Below, one piece after another: positions 1,586-48,014 of a DNA stretch of 64,000 nt. The stretch spans positions 5,032,501 to 5,096,500 of the forward strand of contig NZ_CP023690.1 of NCBI RefSeq assembly GCF_008704795.1, read 5' to 3'. The translations under genes and the position numbers were made by a program. The DNA is from Streptomyces spectabilis. GTDB lineage: Bacteria > Actinomycetota > Actinomycetes > Streptomycetales > Streptomycetaceae. The notes under the pieces were generated by a model. The model ran no database searches and was not told the origin of the DNA. It saw only the letters and a list, made by a program, of their open reading frames with translations. Position 1 is the stretch's first letter. Each line of letters opens with the position of its first letter.

Positions 1586-2734
1586 TCAGCCCAGTGCGTG
1601 CGCGGCGAGTACGTCGCCCAGTGCTTCCTCGTGGGCTGCCGCCGGGCCGAGGGAGAGCTCCAGGTGCTTGGCCCAGGCGTGGTAGCGGTGCAGGGGGTAG
1701 TCGGTGTCGGCGCCGAAGCCGCCGTGCAGGTGTTGTGCCGTCTGTACGACGCGGCGTACGCCGTCCGCGGCCCAGGTCTTGGCCACGGCTATGTCGGCGG
1801 CGACCGGCAGCAGCCCGTCGCCCGGTGCCGTGCGGTCCGGTGTGCTCAGGCGCCAGGCGGCCTGCCAGAGGGTCGCTTCCATCGCGCGCAGATCGATGTA
1901 GCGGTCGGCGGCCTGGACCGCGACGGCCTGGAAGGTGGCGATGGGGTGGCCGAACTGCTCGCGCTTGCCGGTGTATTCGCTGGTCATGCGAAGCACCCTG
2001 GTGCCGAGGCCAAGGGCGAGCGCACAGGTGCCGGTGGTGAGCAGGTCGCGCAGGAACTCCCAGGCGCCTTCGGTGGTGATGAGGTCTGCGTGGGGGACGC
2101 GCACGGAGTCAAGGCGTAGTTCGCCGAGGCGTTCGCCGGTGGTGGAGGTCTGCTCGGCGAGGCTGAGGCCCTGGGCGGCGCGGGGGACGAGGGCGAGGAC
2201 GGTACGGCCTTCGGGGGCGGTGGCCGGTACGAGGATGAAGTCGGCGTTGTACGCCCAGGCCACGGCGGTCTGGGCGCCGTCGAGCAGCCAGTCGGTGCCG
2301 TCGGGCCGTGCGGAGACGGCGAGTTCGGCGCCGTCGTGACCGGTGCGGCCGTGCGCGGCGACGGTCAGGACGACCTCGCCGCGGGCGGCCCGCGTGAGGA
2401 TCCGCTGTTTCAACTCGTCGCCGCCGTGGGTCTGCACGGTGTACGCGGCCGCGCTGGACTCCAGGAGCGGGACGCGGGCGAGCACCTTCGCCGCTTCGCG
2501 CAGGACCAGGCAGAGCGCGATGGCGTCGAGGCCCGAGCCGCCGTGCTCGGGGGCGAGGAGCAGGCTGAGCAGGTCGGCCTCGGCGAGCCTGGCCCACAGG
2601 GCGCGGTCGAAGTCATCGGCGACGGCACCGGGGGTGAGCGAAGGGCTGGGCACGCCGTCCGGTACGACATCGGCGAAGAGCGCTTGGGCCGCTTCGAGCG
2701 CCGCCTGCTGTTCCTCGGTGAAGGTGAAGTCCAC
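1586..2734 (-). CDS. Acyl-CoA dehydrogenase family protein
   Basis: A 382-residue flavoprotein of the acyl-CoA dehydrogenase fold: N-terminal helical domain beginning FTFTEEQQAALEAAQALF, a middle beta domain, and a C-terminal four-helix domain with SEYTGKREQFGHPI, the FAD-contacting motif of the family. It should oxidise an acyl-CoA to the 2-enoyl-CoA; the substrate cannot be read from the sequence. Length and divergence resemble the short FadE subunits of actinobacteria that often work as heterodimers, but no partner lies next to it. GTG 2734 is preferred because GGGAGGA sits just upstream. It lies 138 bases downstream of paaE on the same strand, separated by a palindromic operator. Confidence 0.85.
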   Translation of the reverse strand: MDFTFTEEQQAALEAAQALFADVVPDGVPSPSLTPGAVADDFDRALWARLAEADLLSLLLAPEHGGSGLDAIALCLVLREAAKVLARVPLLESSAAAYTVQTHGGDELKQRILTRAARGEVVLTVAAHGRTGHDGAELAVSARPDGTDWLLDGAQTAVAWAYNADFILVPATAPEGRTVLALVPRAAQGLSLAEQTSTTGERLGELRLDSVRVPHADLITTEGAWEFLRDLLTTGTCALALGLGTRVLRMTSEYTGKREQFGHPIATFQAVAVQAADRYIDLRAMEATLWQAAWRLSTPDRTAPGDGLLPVAADIAVAKTWAADGVRRVVQTAQHLHGGFGADTDYPLHRYHAWAKHLELSLGPAAAHEEALGDVLAAHALG

Positions 2735-2808
2735 TGTTCGTCCTCCCACGCGCGCCGGCCCGGTCGTGTCCGTTCGCCCCGTCCGTCAGTTCTGACGGGT
2801 CGTCAAGA

Positions 2809-2822
2809 TAGAACAGGTTCTA
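2809..2822. promoter_or_regulatory. KstR-like palindromic operator
   Basis: TAGAACAGGTTCTA is a 14-bp inverted repeat (TAGAAC-AG-GTTCTA) 74 bases upstream of the acyl-CoA dehydrogenase start. It fits the pattern TnnAACnnGTTnnA that I recall for KstR, the TetR-family repressor of steroid catabolism in mycobacteria and rhodococci. Regulator identity is an inference; no kstR gene is in the window. Confidence 0.55.
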
Positions 2823-2872
2823 GCGGATGGGAACAGCTGCCGCTTTGGCGGTGGGCGCCGACGCGGCCGGGC

Positions 2873-3940
2873 TCAGCGGTCGAAGTCCAGCTCCACCTTG
2901 TCCGTGGTCGGGTGGGACTGGCAGGCCAGGACGTATCCGGCTTCGGTCTCCTCCGGCTCCAGCGCGAAGTTCCGGTCCATCCGGACGTCGCCGGAGACCT
3001 TGAAGGCCCGGCAGGTGCCGCAGACGCCGCCCTTGCAGGCGAACGGCGCGTCCGCGCGGTTGCGCAGCACCGTGTCGAGGAGCGTCTCGCCCGACTGCAC
3101 CGGCCAGGTGCCGGAGCGGCCGTCGAGAGTCACGGTGACCGTGCTGTGCTCAGGCACTGGGACGGTCGCGGTCGCCTGGGGGGCGTCGTCGACGTGGAAT
3201 ATCTCCTCGTGGATGCGGCGCCGGTCCACGCCGAGGGACCGCAGGGTCCGCTCCGCGCTCTGCACCAGGCCGTACGGGCCGCACAGGAACCAGCCGTCGA
3301 CCTCGGGCACCGTGAGAAGGGCGGGCAGCAGGGCCGCGAGCCGCTCCCCGTCAAGCCGCCCGGAGGTGAGCCCGGCCTGCTGCTCCTCGCGGGAGAGCAC
3401 CGTCACCAGCTGGAACCGGTCCGGCCAGCGGTCCTTGAGGTCGGCGACCTCCTCCAGGAACATCGTGGACGCCGTGGTGCGGTCGCTGCGGATCAGGCAG
3501 AACCGGGCGCGCGGTTCCCGCTCCAGGAGCGTGGTGACGATGGAGAGCACCGGGGTGATGCCGCTGCCGCCGACCACCGCCGCATACCGGCCGGGGGCGG
3601 GGTCCAGGGTGAAGCGGCCCGCCGGGGTCATCACCTCCAGCTCGTCGCCCACGGCTATTTCCTTGTGCGCGTACGTCGAGAAGGCGCCGCCGTCCACCAC
3701 GCGCACGCCGACCCGCAACGTGCTCGGTTCCCCGGCGGCTTGGGGGGCCGGGGCCGAGGAACAGATCGAGTAGGTGCGCCGGATCTCGACGCCGTCGACG
3801 ACGCGGCGCAGGGCCAGGTGCTGGCCCGGGGTGTAGCGGTAGTCCTCGCGCAGAGCCGGGGGGACGTCGAAGGTCAGGGCCACGGAGTCGTCGGTGAGCT
3901 GCTCGACGGCCGCTACGCGCAGCTGGTGGAAGCGCGCCAT
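2873..3940 (-). CDS. paaE: Phenylacetyl-CoA 1,2-epoxidase reductase subunit PaaE
   Basis: A 355-residue reductase that passes electrons from NADPH through FAD and a [2Fe-2S] cluster to the PaaABC(D) oxygenase. The N-terminal half is a ferredoxin-NADP reductase module with the FAD motif RRTYSICSS and the nucleotide motif GGSGITPVLSI. The last 90 residues are a plant-type ferredoxin with CKGGVCGTC and the distal Cys in LACQSHP. Stop and start of paaD/paaE overlap as TGATG, with AAGGAG five bases before ATG 3940. It is the last gene of paaABCDE. Confidence 0.95.
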   Translation of the reverse strand: MARFHQLRVAAVEQLTDDSVALTFDVPPALREDYRYTPGQHLALRRVVDGVEIRRTYSICSSAPAPQAAGEPSTLRVGVRVVDGGAFSTYAHKEIAVGDELEVMTPAGRFTLDPAPGRYAAVVGGSGITPVLSIVTTLLEREPRARFCLIRSDRTTASTMFLEEVADLKDRWPDRFQLVTVLSREEQQAGLTSGRLDGERLAALLPALLTVPEVDGWFLCGPYGLVQSAERTLRSLGVDRRRIHEEIFHVDDAPQATATVPVPEHSTVTVTLDGRSGTWPVQSGETLLDTVLRNRADAPFACKGGVCGTCRAFKVSGDVRMDRNFALEPEETEAGYVLACQSHPTTDKVELDFDR

Positions 3941-44686: not shown

Positions 44687-45166
44687 ATGTACGGCTACGA
44701 CCAACACGCCGGTGTCGGCCAGGGGTACGCCCCGCCGCAGCAGCCGCAGCAGCACGCGCAGACGCCCGGTGGTTACGGCCAGCAGCCCCCGCTGTATCCC
44801 GAGCCGTCGCCGCCGTCCCTCGCCGACGCGGTGCGCGCGTTCACCACGGGCTCGATGTCCGCCGAGGACTTCCAGCAGGTCTTCGCGACCTCGAAGGTCT
44901 ACTGCCCGCGCGGCGACAACCCGGGCTTCCTCGCGCTGCACAACACCCAGCAGCCGGTCATCCCGATGTTCACCTCGCTCAAGGAGCTGCGCCGCTACGC
45001 GGGCAAGGACTCCAAGTACTTCGTCATCACCGGCGCCGAGGTGATCGACCTCCTCCCGACCGGCTACGGCTTCGTCCTGGACATGGAGGGCGAGCACCGC
45101 ATGGTCTTCGACGCGAAGGCAGTCGAGCAGATGGTGGACTTCGCGATGCGCCGCATGTACGGCTGA
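44687..45166 (+). CDS. SseB-family protein (N-terminal SseB domain)
   Basis: A 159-residue protein. The first 45 residues are a Gln/Pro/Tyr/Gly-rich linker. The remainder is a small alpha/beta SseB-like domain with VYCPRGDNPGFLALHNTQQP, MFTSLKELRRYAGKD and VFDAKAVEQMVDFAMRRMYG. SseB-like domains in actinobacteria often occur near ESX or secretion genes, but nothing of that kind is near here. It ends 65 bases from the convergent P450 gene and marks the left border of the RiPP locus. Confidence 0.8.
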   Translation: MYGYDQHAGVGQGYAPPQQPQQHAQTPGGYGQQPPLYPEPSPPSLADAVRAFTTGSMSAEDFQQVFATSKVYCPRGDNPGFLALHNTQQPVIPMFTSLKELRRYAGKDSKYFVITGAEVIDLLPTGYGFVLDMEGEHRMVFDAKAVEQMVDFAMRRMYG

Positions 45167-45231
45167 CCGGCCCGCGCCCGCGCGTACGTGTACGCGTACG
45201 GGTGATCAGGACCCGTCCTGCCGCGGCGGGT

Positions 45232-46428
45232 TCAGAGGTGGCGGACCTTCGTGCGGTGGCCCACGTGGACGGTCCGCACGCCCAGGAGGCCGAGGAGGGG
45301 GACCTCCGCGGTGCGCTGGCCGGGGGCGACGATCAGGCCGGTCCTGCGGATGTGGCCGAGGAGCAGTTCGGCGAGCGGCATGACCAGGTGGCGGCCCCAG
45401 CAGCGCTCGCTGACGTGGCCGAACGGCAGATAGCCGGGGGTGTCGTCGGGGTCGAGGGTGTCCCAGCGCTCGGGCCGGAACTCGTCCGGGGCGTCCCAGA
45501 GGGCGGGGTCGCGGTGGGTGAGCAGCGGCAGCATCAGGATGTCGTCGCCCGGGCCTATGCGGTCGTCGACGGCCGGGTACTCCGGCGACCGGTTGCGCAG
45601 CAGGTTCCACGACGGGGGCAGCAGGCGCATCGCCTCGTACAGCGCGGCGCGGTCCGAGACGGAGTCGTCGAACGGGGAGCCCAGCCACAGGGCGTTGGCG
45701 ACGAGGGTGGAGACGGTGAAGCAGACCGGGGCGGCGGCGCGGCGGTACATGCCCATGGCGTAGCGCCGGTCCTGGTAGGTCTCCGCTTCGGCGACGAGGT
45801 TCGCCAGATGGGTCAGGTGCGGGCCGGGGCGCGGGCGCCGGGGCAGGGCCGCGCCGGTCACGATCGTGGTCCAGGTGACCTTGGTGTCGATCTCCAGGAG
45901 CCGGGACATCAGGACGCGCAGGCGCCACGGATCGTCGCGCAGGACCAGATCGCGCAGGAACCGGTGCCCGGTGATCGGCCACGGCCCGGACAGATCGGTG
46001 TCCGCGGGGAGCGGGTCGGGCCCGTCCAGGGCGGCGCGGACGTCCCGGCCGACGGTCCGCATCACCGACGCGGCCTCGTTCTTGGAGATCGAGCGGCCGT
46101 GCAGCGGCTTGAAGGTGGGGCGCTCGGTCTCGGTCGCCCGGCGCGCGGCCAGGATGCGGTCGGAGAGCTCCGCGCCCGGGATGCCGATCGTGTCGGGTTC
46201 CAGCCGTACGAGGTCCTTGCCGGTGTGCTCGTCGAGGAGGGCCTGGAGCCGTGGCGCGAAAACGGTGGTGCGGCGATTTCGCGGCCGCGGCCCGGCCGGG
46301 CCCGATGCATTTCCGGGACCTTCGGTTCCGTGCACCGCTCCGCTTTCTGAATTCTTTACGGAAGCGTGGGGAGCGGCATTCCCTGCCTTTTGGCTCTGCC
46401 GATTCTGGGCGTGCTCTGTGGCTGACAT
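45232..46428 (-). CDS. Cytochrome P450, predicted atropopeptide (tryptorubin-type) crosslinking enzyme
   Basis: A 398-residue soluble P450. Key marks are ExxR at 265-268 (EAMRLLPP), FRPERW near 312-317 and the heme-binding loop FGHVSERCWG with the thiolate Cys343. The first 50 residues are an unusual Ser/Ala/Gly/Asn-rich extension. The gene lies 93 bases downstream of a 28-codon gene whose product ends AWYIWY. In known atropopeptide clusters a single P450 forms several C-C and C-N bonds between Trp and Tyr side chains, so that role is inferred from context plus fold. GGAG lies eight bases before ATG 46428, inside a small CGGAG-AC-CTCCG hairpin. Only the precursor gene shares its promoter. Confidence 0.85.
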   Translation of the reverse strand: MSATEHAQNRQSQKAGNAAPHASVKNSESGAVHGTEGPGNASGPAGPRPRNRRTTVFAPRLQALLDEHTGKDLVRLEPDTIGIPGAELSDRILAARRATETERPTFKPLHGRSISKNEAASVMRTVGRDVRAALDGPDPLPADTDLSGPWPITGHRFLRDLVLRDDPWRLRVLMSRLLEIDTKVTWTTIVTGAALPRRPRPGPHLTHLANLVAEAETYQDRRYAMGMYRRAAAPVCFTVSTLVANALWLGSPFDDSVSDRAALYEAMRLLPPSWNLLRNRSPEYPAVDDRIGPGDDILMLPLLTHRDPALWDAPDEFRPERWDTLDPDDTPGYLPFGHVSERCWGRHLVMPLAELLLGHIRRTGLIVAPGQRTAEVPLLGLLGVRTVHVGHRTKVRHL

Positions 46429-46455
46429 ACGGAGGTCTCCGGAAGGAAGGGCCGA

Positions 46456-46510
46456 GGGCCCGCGCGCGGCGGAACGGAAAGCAGCCGACTCCTGTGCCGT
46501 GCGCGGGCCC
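46456..46510 (-). promoter_or_regulatory. Hairpin between the precursor and P450 genes
   Basis: GGGCCCGCGC (46456-46465) pairs with GCGCGGGCCC (46501-46510) over a 35-base loop. It starts 11 bases after the precursor stop. It could act as an attenuator or RNA stabiliser that gives more precursor than enzyme. Confidence 0.55.
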
Positions 46511-46521
46511 GCGCAGGACGC

Positions 46522-46608
46522 TCAGTACCAGATGTACCAGGCGGACTGCTTCAGGCTGGGCTCGCTCTTCTTCGTGGCGGACTTGAGGGCCCGGATGATC
46601 TTAGCCAT
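46522..46608 (-). CDS. Atropopeptide (tryptorubin-type) RiPP precursor peptide
   Basis: A 28-codon gene read on the minus strand from ATG 46608 to TGA 46522. The leader of 22 residues starts MAKIIRALKSA, is Lys/Ser/Ala-rich and amphipathic, and continues through KKSEPSLKQS to the core AWYIWY at the very C-terminus. The core has the sequence I recall for tryptorubin A, a Streptomyces hexapeptide with aryl crosslinks. GGAGGGAGAGG five bases upstream is a strong ribosome site. The P450 gene directly downstream is the expected sole modifying enzyme. A leader-removing protease is not in the locus and is presumably a general cellular peptidase. Confidence 0.9.
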   Translation of the reverse strand: MAKIIRALKSATKKSEPSLKQSAWYIWY

Positions 46609-46643
46609 GTAAAACCTCTCCCTCCATGTGTCGTCTGCACGCG

Positions 46644-46663
46644 GCAAACGGTTGCAAACGGTT
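46644..46663. repeat. Tandem 10-bp direct repeat in the precursor leader region
   Basis: GCAAACGGTT occurs twice without a gap (46644-46653 and 46654-46663), 36 bases before the precursor ATG. Ten-base spacing puts both on the same DNA face, so it is a candidate activator or LacI-like site. Confidence 0.55.
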
Positions 46664-46728
46664 TAGGAGCGGAAATTGCCGGGCGCCCCGAAGGGTGCCG
46701 GAAAATGCGCTCCAGTAGTTGCGTGGTG

Positions 46729-46758
46729 AGTGAATCTGTCTCTGGCTCGCGTTGTCAA
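46729..46758 (-). promoter_or_regulatory. Candidate promoter of the RiPP operon
   Basis: On the minus strand TTGACA (46758-46753) is followed after 18 bases by TTCACT (46734-46729), a weak -10. It would give a leader of about 115 bases containing the tandem repeat. Confidence 0.45.
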
Positions 46759-46763
46759 TGGGT

Positions 46764-47013
46764 TGTTCTTCTTTTGCTGTTTCCTGTGAAGTCGTTGTCT
46801 CTATATACGGGATATGTGGTGACTCTGCGGCGGGTGTGGAGGGGGGTGCGCGGGCGGTACGGGTGTCCGGCGCGGGCGGGTGGGGGTGTGGCGGGGGCGT
46901 GGAGGGGCGCGGCGGGGTGCCGGGGCTGGTGGGGGCGCGTTTCGGCCAGGGGGCGTTCGGTGGCGCGGCCGGGGGGAATGCCGTCGGGTCGCGCCGCGTT
47001 CCAAGTGGCAGAA
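46764..47013. other. Non-coding stretch, right border of the RiPP locus
   Basis: The plus strand is strongly G/T-rich (46830-46980), with an A/T-rich patch TCTATATACGGGATATG near 46798-46815. Open frames here lack ribosome sites and codon bias, and no gene can be supported. Together with 46609-46763 it makes a gap of about 450 bases. Confidence 0.5.
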
Positions 47014-47029
47014 AGTTCTACGTTCAACT
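47014..47029. promoter_or_regulatory. Imperfect palindrome upstream of the pirin gene
   Basis: AGTTCTACGTTCAACT has AGTT/AACT outer arms and lies 29 bases before the pirin start, a possible regulator site. Confidence 0.3.
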
Positions 47030-47057
47030 AACCTCAGCGTAAGAGGAGGTCCGAACC

Positions 47058-48014
47058 ATGCCCGCAGTGACCGTTGAGAACCCGCTGACCCTGCCCCGCG
47101 TGACCGTGCCCGCAGACACCGTCGCGCGGCCCGTGCTCGCCGTGACGACCGCGCCGAGCGGCTTCGAGGGCGAAGGGTTCCCGGTGCGCCGGGCCTTCGC
47201 CGGCATCAACTACAAGTACCTCGACCCGTTCATCATGATGGACCAGATGGGCGAGGTGGAGTACGCGGCCGGAGAGCCCAAGGGCACGCCCTGGCACCCC
47301 CACCGCGGCTTCGAGACCGTGACGTACCTGATCGACGGCACGTTCGTGCACCAGGACTCCAACGGTGGTGGCGGCACCATCAAGAACGGCGACACCCAGT
47401 GGATGACGGCCGGGTCCGGCCTGCTCCACATCGAGGCGCCGCCGGAGTCGCTCGTCATGTCCGGCGGGCTCTTCCACGGGCTCCAGCTGTGGGTGAACCT
47501 GCCCGCGAAGGACAAGATGATGGACCCCCGCTACCAGGACATCCGCGGCGGCCAGGTGCGGCTGCTCACCTCGCCGGACGGGGGCGCGCTGCTCCGCGTC
47601 ATCGCCGGTGAGCTCGACGGGCACGAGGGGCCCGGCATCACGCACACCCCGATCACCATGGTCCACGCGACCGTGCGCCCCGGCGCCGAGGTCACGCTGC
47701 CCTGGCGGGAGGACTTCAACGGCCTCGCGTACGTCCTCGCCGGGCGCGGGACCGTCGGGGACGAGCGGCGGCCCGTCGAGCGCGGGCAGACCGCGGTGTT
47801 CGGGTCCGGCGGGTCGCTCACCGTCCGGGCGGACGAGAAGCAGGACTCCCACACGCCGGATCTGGAGGTCGTCCTCCTCGGCGGACAGCCGATCCGGGAG
47901 CCGATGGCGCACTACGGGCCGTTCGTGATGAACACCCGCGAGGAGCTGCAGCAGGCGTTCGAGGACTTCCAGAAGGGGCGCCTGGGGTCCGTGCCTGCGG
48001 TGCACGGCATGTGA
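47058..48014 (+). CDS. Pirin family protein (bicupin)
   Basis: A 318-residue pirin. The N-terminal cupin has FIMMDQMGEVEYAAGEPKGT and the metal-binding HPHRGFETVTYLIDG, with a later SGLLHIEAP-type His/Glu region. The C-terminal cupin begins near VHATVRPGAEVTLPW. Bacterial pirins bind Fe and some act as quercetinases or bind pyruvate dehydrogenase E1; the role here is unknown. AGGAGG lies eight bases before the ATG. It is monocistronic and followed by a hairpin. Confidence 0.9.
   Translation: MPAVTVENPLTLPRVTVPADTVARPVLAVTTAPSGFEGEGFPVRRAFAGINYKYLDPFIMMDQMGEVEYAAGEPKGTPWHPHRGFETVTYLIDGTFVHQDSNGGGGTIKNGDTQWMTAGSGLLHIEAPPESLVMSGGLFHGLQLWVNLPAKDKMMDPRYQDIRGGQVRLLTSPDGGALLRVIAGELDGHEGPGITHTPITMVHATVRPGAEVTLPWREDFNGLAYVLAGRGTVGDERRPVERGQTAVFGSGGSLTVRADEKQDSHTPDLEVVLLGGQPIREPMAHYGPFVMNTREELQQAFEDFQKGRLGSVPAVHGM

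Follow-up and report, generated by a model that had tools for sequence, protein, structure and literature searches.

The 64,000-nucleotide stretch of the Streptomyces spectabilis genome analyzed here (the window) holds an atropopeptide cluster that, judged from its sequence, is minimal, intact, and typical, comprising a 28-codon precursor gene and a single cytochrome P450 gene (Table 1). The P450 is predicted to crosslink the AWYIWY core of the precursor, and we consider it probable that tryptorubin A is formed. A broader proposition could, in our assessment, fall either way: that atropopeptide cassettes of Actinomycetota and Pseudomonadota carry an RNA dosage switch, namely an intercistronic hairpin conserved in structure and divergent in sequence that would hold peptide far above enzyme, and that the window represents an overlooked PSLK clade, scoring under the NCBI model, in which AWYIWY re-evolved among AWYFWY-type relatives.

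Table 1. Positions of the cluster, its sequence elements, and its neighbors in the window
Feature	Coordinates	Strand	Basis	Details
SseB-like gene	44687..45166	plus	PF07179	neighbor outside cluster
Inserted cassette	45167..46965	.	empty-site comparison	approximate ends, ~1.8 kb
Cytochrome P450 gene	45232..46428	minus	Pfam PF00067, motifs	predicted crosslinking enzyme, 398 aa
Predicted intercistronic RNA hairpin	46456..46510	minus	folding, conservation	arms GGGCCCGCGCACGGC (46496-46510) and GCCGCGCGCGGGCCC (46456-46470)
Precursor gene	46525..46608	minus	sequence	28 codons, product MAKIIRALKSATKKSEPSLKQSAWYIWY
Ribosome-binding site of precursor gene	46615..46625	minus	sequence	GGAGGGAGAGG, 6 bases before ATG
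Promoter-like TTGACA-N18-TTCACT	46729..46758	minus	sequence	first base 150 nt before precursor ATG
Pirin gene	47058..48014	plus	PF02678, PF05726	neighbor outside cluster

The precursor and P450 genes

The precursor ATG starts at 46608, the final codon lies at 46525-46527 and the TGA stop at 46522-46524, and the product divides into the leader MAKIIRALKSATKKSEPSLKQS, with PSLK at residues 17-20, and the core AWYIWY. An earlier note, made from the letters of the window, had described this 28-codon frame with its ribosome site and AWYIWY ending, and had placed it directly upstream of the P450. Both were found, the two genes sharing the minus strand with 93 bases between the precursor stop and the P450 start. 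The core is that of the tryptorubin A hexapeptide, as the note had stated: PMC11450843 gives WYIWY for tryptorubin B and the hexapeptide with an N-terminal Ala.

The P450 scored 48 bits against Pfam PF00067 (cut-off 22.8), and the ExxR and FGHVSERCWG motifs previously reported as intact were confirmed as EAMR at residues 265-268 and FGHVSERCWG at residues 336-345, with heme Cys 343. Profile, ExxR, heme Cys motif, and modeled fold all place the protein in the cytochrome P450 superfamily, and E265, R268, F336, G337, E341, R342, C343, and W344 were invariant in 52 aligned P450s (own included). Residues 1-41 were modeled at low confidence and are likely disordered. The N-terminal extension of ~45 residues (46428 to ~46291), modeled at low confidence, was among relatives more than 80% identical present only in MNP-20 and NRRL B-1347. 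The closest NCBIfam P450 model, that of aminopyruvatide ApyO, reached 52.9 bits, its cut-off being 525. In sequence searches for a solved structure of a family P450, the best 60 rows (of 151 and of 143) consisted of other P450s, and the biarylitide P450 8U2M was not in those rows.

A scan with the P450 found one member of the family in the S. spectabilis genome, and no second P450 was present among 12 neighboring ORFs checked by Pfam, which represent part of the ORFs in the window. Among 10 nearby ORFs screened for extra tailoring functions, six matched common families (acyl-CoA dehydrogenase, LURP-one-related, MFS, AI-2E transporter, class II tRNA synthetase, and alpha/beta hydrolase) and four had no Pfam match.

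Atropopeptides are defined by a KSLK-type motif at leader positions 17-20, a Trp at core position 2, and a family P450, with KSLK, RSLK, ESLK, KSRK, KPLK, and PSLK as accepted leader motifs (PMC11450843). All three features occur in this cluster: PSLK, an accepted form, at 17-20; Trp at the second core position (A-W-Y-I-W-Y); and a P450 that nests among relatives from characterized strains and shares their FGHxxERCWG region. The proposal in the earlier note of a minimal atropopeptide cluster is thus borne out. The NCBIfam tryptorubin_fam model NF038372 gave the precursor 27.8 bits (E 2.2e-6), under its curated cut-off of 33. Among 10 other peptides compared, including that of L111 (below), seven precursors from the same P450 clade scored 18.4-27.8, such that all eight clade precursors tested, that of the window included, fell under the cut-off, whereas two KSLK precursors scored 56.1 and 62.2.

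Distribution and phylogeny

Matches to the P450 at E ≤ 1e-20 were present in 33 of 295 genomes of the genus, own included. These were near full-length in 30 genomes (57-100% identity), at 39% only in one, and fragmentary in two; one of the 30 held a second match (39%), bringing the total to 34. From a scan of named genomes, the best 80 of 127 relatives were taken on. The loci examined, L001 (the window) to L110, include some strains twice. In all 110, a short frame on the same strand just upstream of the P450 has Trp as its second core residue, 108 being detected by motif search (with one spurious extra match each in L053 and L068) and two, L042 and L100, by eye. The pairing is therefore not a product of chance. 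The L100 precursor carries a KNLK variant of the leader motif. Near position 4847 of L042 is a clade precursor, MAKKIREAIFGARSFKRVAWYHWY, in which RSFK replaces SLK, placing it outside the six listed CoreFinder motifs.

In a maximum-likelihood P450 tree (quick mode, SH-aLRT, 119 rows; L083 and L096 are missing because the script kept only frames longer than 250 aa), the window P450 belonged to a 17-row clade with SH-aLRT support of 100 that also contained L002, L031-L042, L071, MNP-20, and S. silvisoli, and in which PSLK mostly replaces KSLK in the leader. This clade was placed within a group of 59 rows (support 89) that included S. laurentii P0060 and S. jumonjinensis P0102, itself within 66 rows (94) that included SPB074, while two S. 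varsoviensis P450s fell outside the 66-row group. Identity to the window P450 was 94% for NRRL B-1347 (L031), 93% for MNP-20, 69-71% for P0060, 67% for P0102, and 64% for SPB074. We take P0060 to be LauB1 and P0102 to be JumB, based on source organism and similarity rather than accessions; no characterized member was seen within the 17-row clade itself. The assignment as an atropopeptide cluster follows from this nesting with the P450s of S. laurentii, S. jumonjinensis, and SPB074. Two checks proposed in the earlier note, that the P450 should group with characterized relatives and that the short ORF should be kept beside its orthologs, both came out in favor, the former through P450s from strains with characterized clusters and the latter at 110 of 110 loci.

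Across the 15 clade loci with tallied cores (the MNP-20 and S. silvisoli precursors lie outside this tally), AWYIWY occurred in the window, L031, and L038, the rest having AWYFWY, AWYVWY, or AWYHWY. Scored as AWYIWY against all other cores, the tree required at least 15 changes (108 rows), in agreement with a remark in PMC11450843 on possible multiple origins of the tryptorubin core.

Several other variants were observed. In four clade leaders (L032, L038, L040, and L071), additional residues that include PIC (PICR in three) separate the first helix from KKSEPSLK. In L094, a Xanthomonas vasicola precursor ending SWGLYM, far from AWYxWY, lies upstream of the P450. L111 (~2062-3288) and L112 (~2061-3397) encode P450s 39% identical to that of the window, preceded by the precursors MKMVKAFVKRFKKDEDLANHAWVLHVI and MKKIKALVRKFKKDEDLANHAWVLHVI, which end in AWVLHVI and lack KSLK; they apparently form a sister P450-RiPP group, and the L111 precursor had no NCBIfam match. 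Finally, L113 and L114 hold short stretches of a family P450 (70-75 residues matched), apparently remnants.

Predicted product

We compared the locus with known systems. That of SPB074 (L095), our stand-in for the tryptorubin trp/try cluster from a strain we take to be a tryptorubin producer, has the same two genes in the same order and the core AWYIWY, and differs in its leader, MRLLFSLKNKLSQQKSLKAH, with KSLK, and in its more distant P450. The laurentirubin cluster (lau) of S. laurentii likewise has WYIWY in its product, and LauB1 alone gives tryptorubin B, as found on co-expression with LauA (PMC11450843); in contrast to the window, where none was seen among the 12 neighboring ORFs, a further P450 in lau introduces an ether bridge. 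The S. jumonjinensis cluster yields amyxirubin B. The scabrirubin cluster (sca) of Embleya scabrispora, set beside the window by description, is of the same RiPP family and also pairs a precursor with a P450, but its core is TWFIWYS and its product has one C-N bridge (PMC11450843). AWYIWY also fits the xWxxWx core of the bitryptides, an atropopeptide subfamily (PMC11450843), the leader motif of which is KSLK rather than PSLK.

The product cannot be read from the core by itself, because ScaB acting on LauA (core WYIWY) formed a single C-N bridge only (PMC12352619) and because a second P450 converts the tryptorubin B skeleton to laurentirubin B (PMC11450843). The expectation in the earlier note of tryptorubin A or a close isomer therefore needs correction where it argues from the core. 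With one P450 of this family found in the genome and none among the 12 neighboring ORFs, tryptorubin A is the best prediction and the likely product, not a certain one. With P0060 and P0102 taken as LauB1 and JumB, the window enzyme would be bracketed by formers of the three-bond tryptorubin/amyxirubin skeleton.

In the route we propose, the P450 would bind the leader helix, and PSLK would guide the core toward the heme. With a net loss of four H, two oxidative couplings would form a Trp-Trp C-C bond that closes onto a backbone amide, as well as a Trp-Tyr C-N bond. The hexapeptide would be freed by a host protease cutting after Ser22, and a peptidase may remove its Ala to give tryptorubin B; redox partners would be supplied from elsewhere in the genome. 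The predicted [M+H]+ values after loss of four H are 897.393 (hexapeptide) and 826.356 (tryptorubin B), consistent with the same arithmetic as for the laurentirubins after loss of six H, 895.376 and 824.340 (PMC11450843).

It seems unlikely to us that the cluster makes a tryptorubin isomer or a mono-bridged peptide instead, as would be the case if PSLK-clade P450s bridge differently or a distant second P450 helps. The divergence of the clade in its leader and P450 N-terminus speaks for such an outcome, as do the at least 15 changes of AWYIWY over 108 tree rows, the single bridge formed by ScaB on LauA, and SvaB, which alone gave two different bridge patterns (PMC11450843, PMC12352619). Further, a LauB2-like P450 elsewhere in the genome would have escaped our searches, LauB2 being 28% identical to TryB (PMC11450843). 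Weighing against it, the clade is bracketed by the presumed LauB1 and JumB, and the jum and amyxirubin P450s made the same structure at 59% identity (PMC11450843). A caution against our main reading is that the authors of that study found structural novelty to be poorly predicted by where a P450 is placed.

Probable insertion between core genes

In the window, 1,891 bases separate the end of the SseB-like gene from the start of the pirin gene. A pirin match was found in 60 of 61 genus genomes searched, from which 30 pirin loci were compared. In 22 of the 29 loci besides our own, the SseB and pirin alignment edges were only 109-300 nt apart; SseB was not found within the range covered in six and lay elsewhere in the last (L136). 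At the right edge, homology to empty sites resumed at 46954-46969 in 12 of 13 cases and later in L138. Among P450 loci L002-L110, only L031 had the same neighbors at high identity within the flanks (1.5 kb for L002-L030). Most likely, the whole cassette was gained in one piece at a site flanked by two core genes.

A promoter-like pair upstream of the precursor

Of the 15 clade loci, 14 have the TTGACA-N18-TTCACT pair in exact form, as does SPB074, and 18 of the 95 loci outside the clade have it with at most two mismatches. When a spacing of 17 or 18 and up to two mismatches were allowed, it occurred in 44 of 110 loci, as compared to two on the reverse strand and none in shuffled sequence. The S. 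spectabilis genome, a single contig of 9.8 Mb, has one exact site, and five sites (versus two control sites) with up to one mismatch. Transcription may begin at this element. A sigma-70 promoter scan of 46400-47100 called nothing, having missed the pair because TTCACT has no A at position 2.

The possibility that the pair is a cluster-specific regulator site was rejected: there were 60 exact sites in 55 of the 295 genus genomes (17 control sites), only four of which lie beside the P450 by coordinates (G000, G010, G075, and G276), and we therefore regard it as a shared promoter-like element, not a family signature. Separately, two direct copies of ACCGTTTGC are present at 46644-46662, upstream of the precursor, where L031 has a gap and at most a partial copy.

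A conserved predicted intercistronic hairpin

Compared with dinucleotide shuffles, the first 100 nt beyond the precursor stop folded more stably, with a mean z of -3.25, and z was below -2 in 80 of 108 loci (L042 and L100 are not in these statistics), leaving 28 that were not. In control segments, z < -2 was seen in 15 of 108 loci upstream of the precursor, in 9, 7, and 7 of 108 for three segments of the P450, and in 22 of 109 after the P450 stop (one of the 110 loci lacks 100 nt there). The signal was present in all 14 scored loci of the PSLK clade and in 10 of 13 from Pseudomonadota; z was about -2.2 to -2.4 for the window, with -2.24 for its hairpin, and -2.7 for SPB074. A stem score of at least 10 was reached in 97 of 108 loci, a count without shuffle control, with a median start ~23 nt after the stop.

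Within the clade (13 sequences), the 15-pair outer stem had 89.2% of cells paired, which 0 of 500 shuffles reached. Five of its 15 pairs were changed on both sides (reached by 6 of 500), involving nine cells (0 of 500), and the covariation score of 0.132 was reached by no shuffle, with a slide of -2 nearly as high (0.100). Further pair types were not above shuffles (317 of 500 reach). RNAalifold returned 19 pairs, eight with two-sided changes, and a small covariation term (-0.3).

No terminator-like site was called in 46400-47100, only one of 108 loci had five or more T in the 8 nt after the hairpin, and Rfam gave no match up to E 1 in 45000-47100. Because a T run is missing, we grade the hairpin as a predicted attenuator or processing site and not as a proven terminator; it is likely a partial terminator, attenuator, or processing site. 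Much transcription would stop or be processed at the hairpin, the read-through part yielding the P450, so that the precursor likely exceeds the enzyme. The conserved predicted hairpin thus likely holds the P450 at a low level compared with the peptide.

In Streptomyces, stable GC-rich hairpins can end transcription even where a T run is lacking, and one could accordingly picture the hairpin as a normal, complete terminator for the precursor gene, with the P450 read from its own promoter. We find this doubtful, since only 27 nt separate the hairpin from the P450 ATG and the sigma-70 scan of 46400-47100, limited to some types of promoter and blind to the TTGACA/TTCACT pair as well, found no such promoter. 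Attenuation or processing remains our preferred interpretation, and internal hairpins are reported to set operon stoichiometry in clostridia, for ABC transporter and cellulosome operons (PMC9045158, PMC4423207). Hairpin, terminator, stem-loop, and promoter go unmentioned in the main text of PMC11450843 and in PMC12352619. Judged by title and start of abstract, none of the papers listed in literature searches describes this hairpin; an earlier description in the 2017, 2020, or 2022 tryptorubin papers is possible.

That the cluster is silent or decayed, with nothing made in this strain, is very improbable: neither frame is broken, the ribosome site of the precursor and the motifs of the P450 are intact, as are the hairpin and the promoter-like pair, and NRRL B-1347, with its closely similar P450, retains the same elements.

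Implications

The S. spectabilis cassette joins a known family, and its kind was already known; of most use among what it adds are the hairpin conserved between the two genes, the empty site, and the gap in annotation. With respect to the latter, a likely tryptorubin producer is added from a leader clade in which all precursors tested score under the NCBI model. The occurrence of AWYIWY, AWYFWY, AWYVWY, and AWYHWY on closely related P450s makes this clade a natural panel for what fixes the bridge pattern. Finally, a ribosome site placed before svaB led to 100-fold higher yields (PMC11450843), and the hairpin provides a direct way to examine one possible cause of that gain, namely that native cassettes may hold the P450 low.
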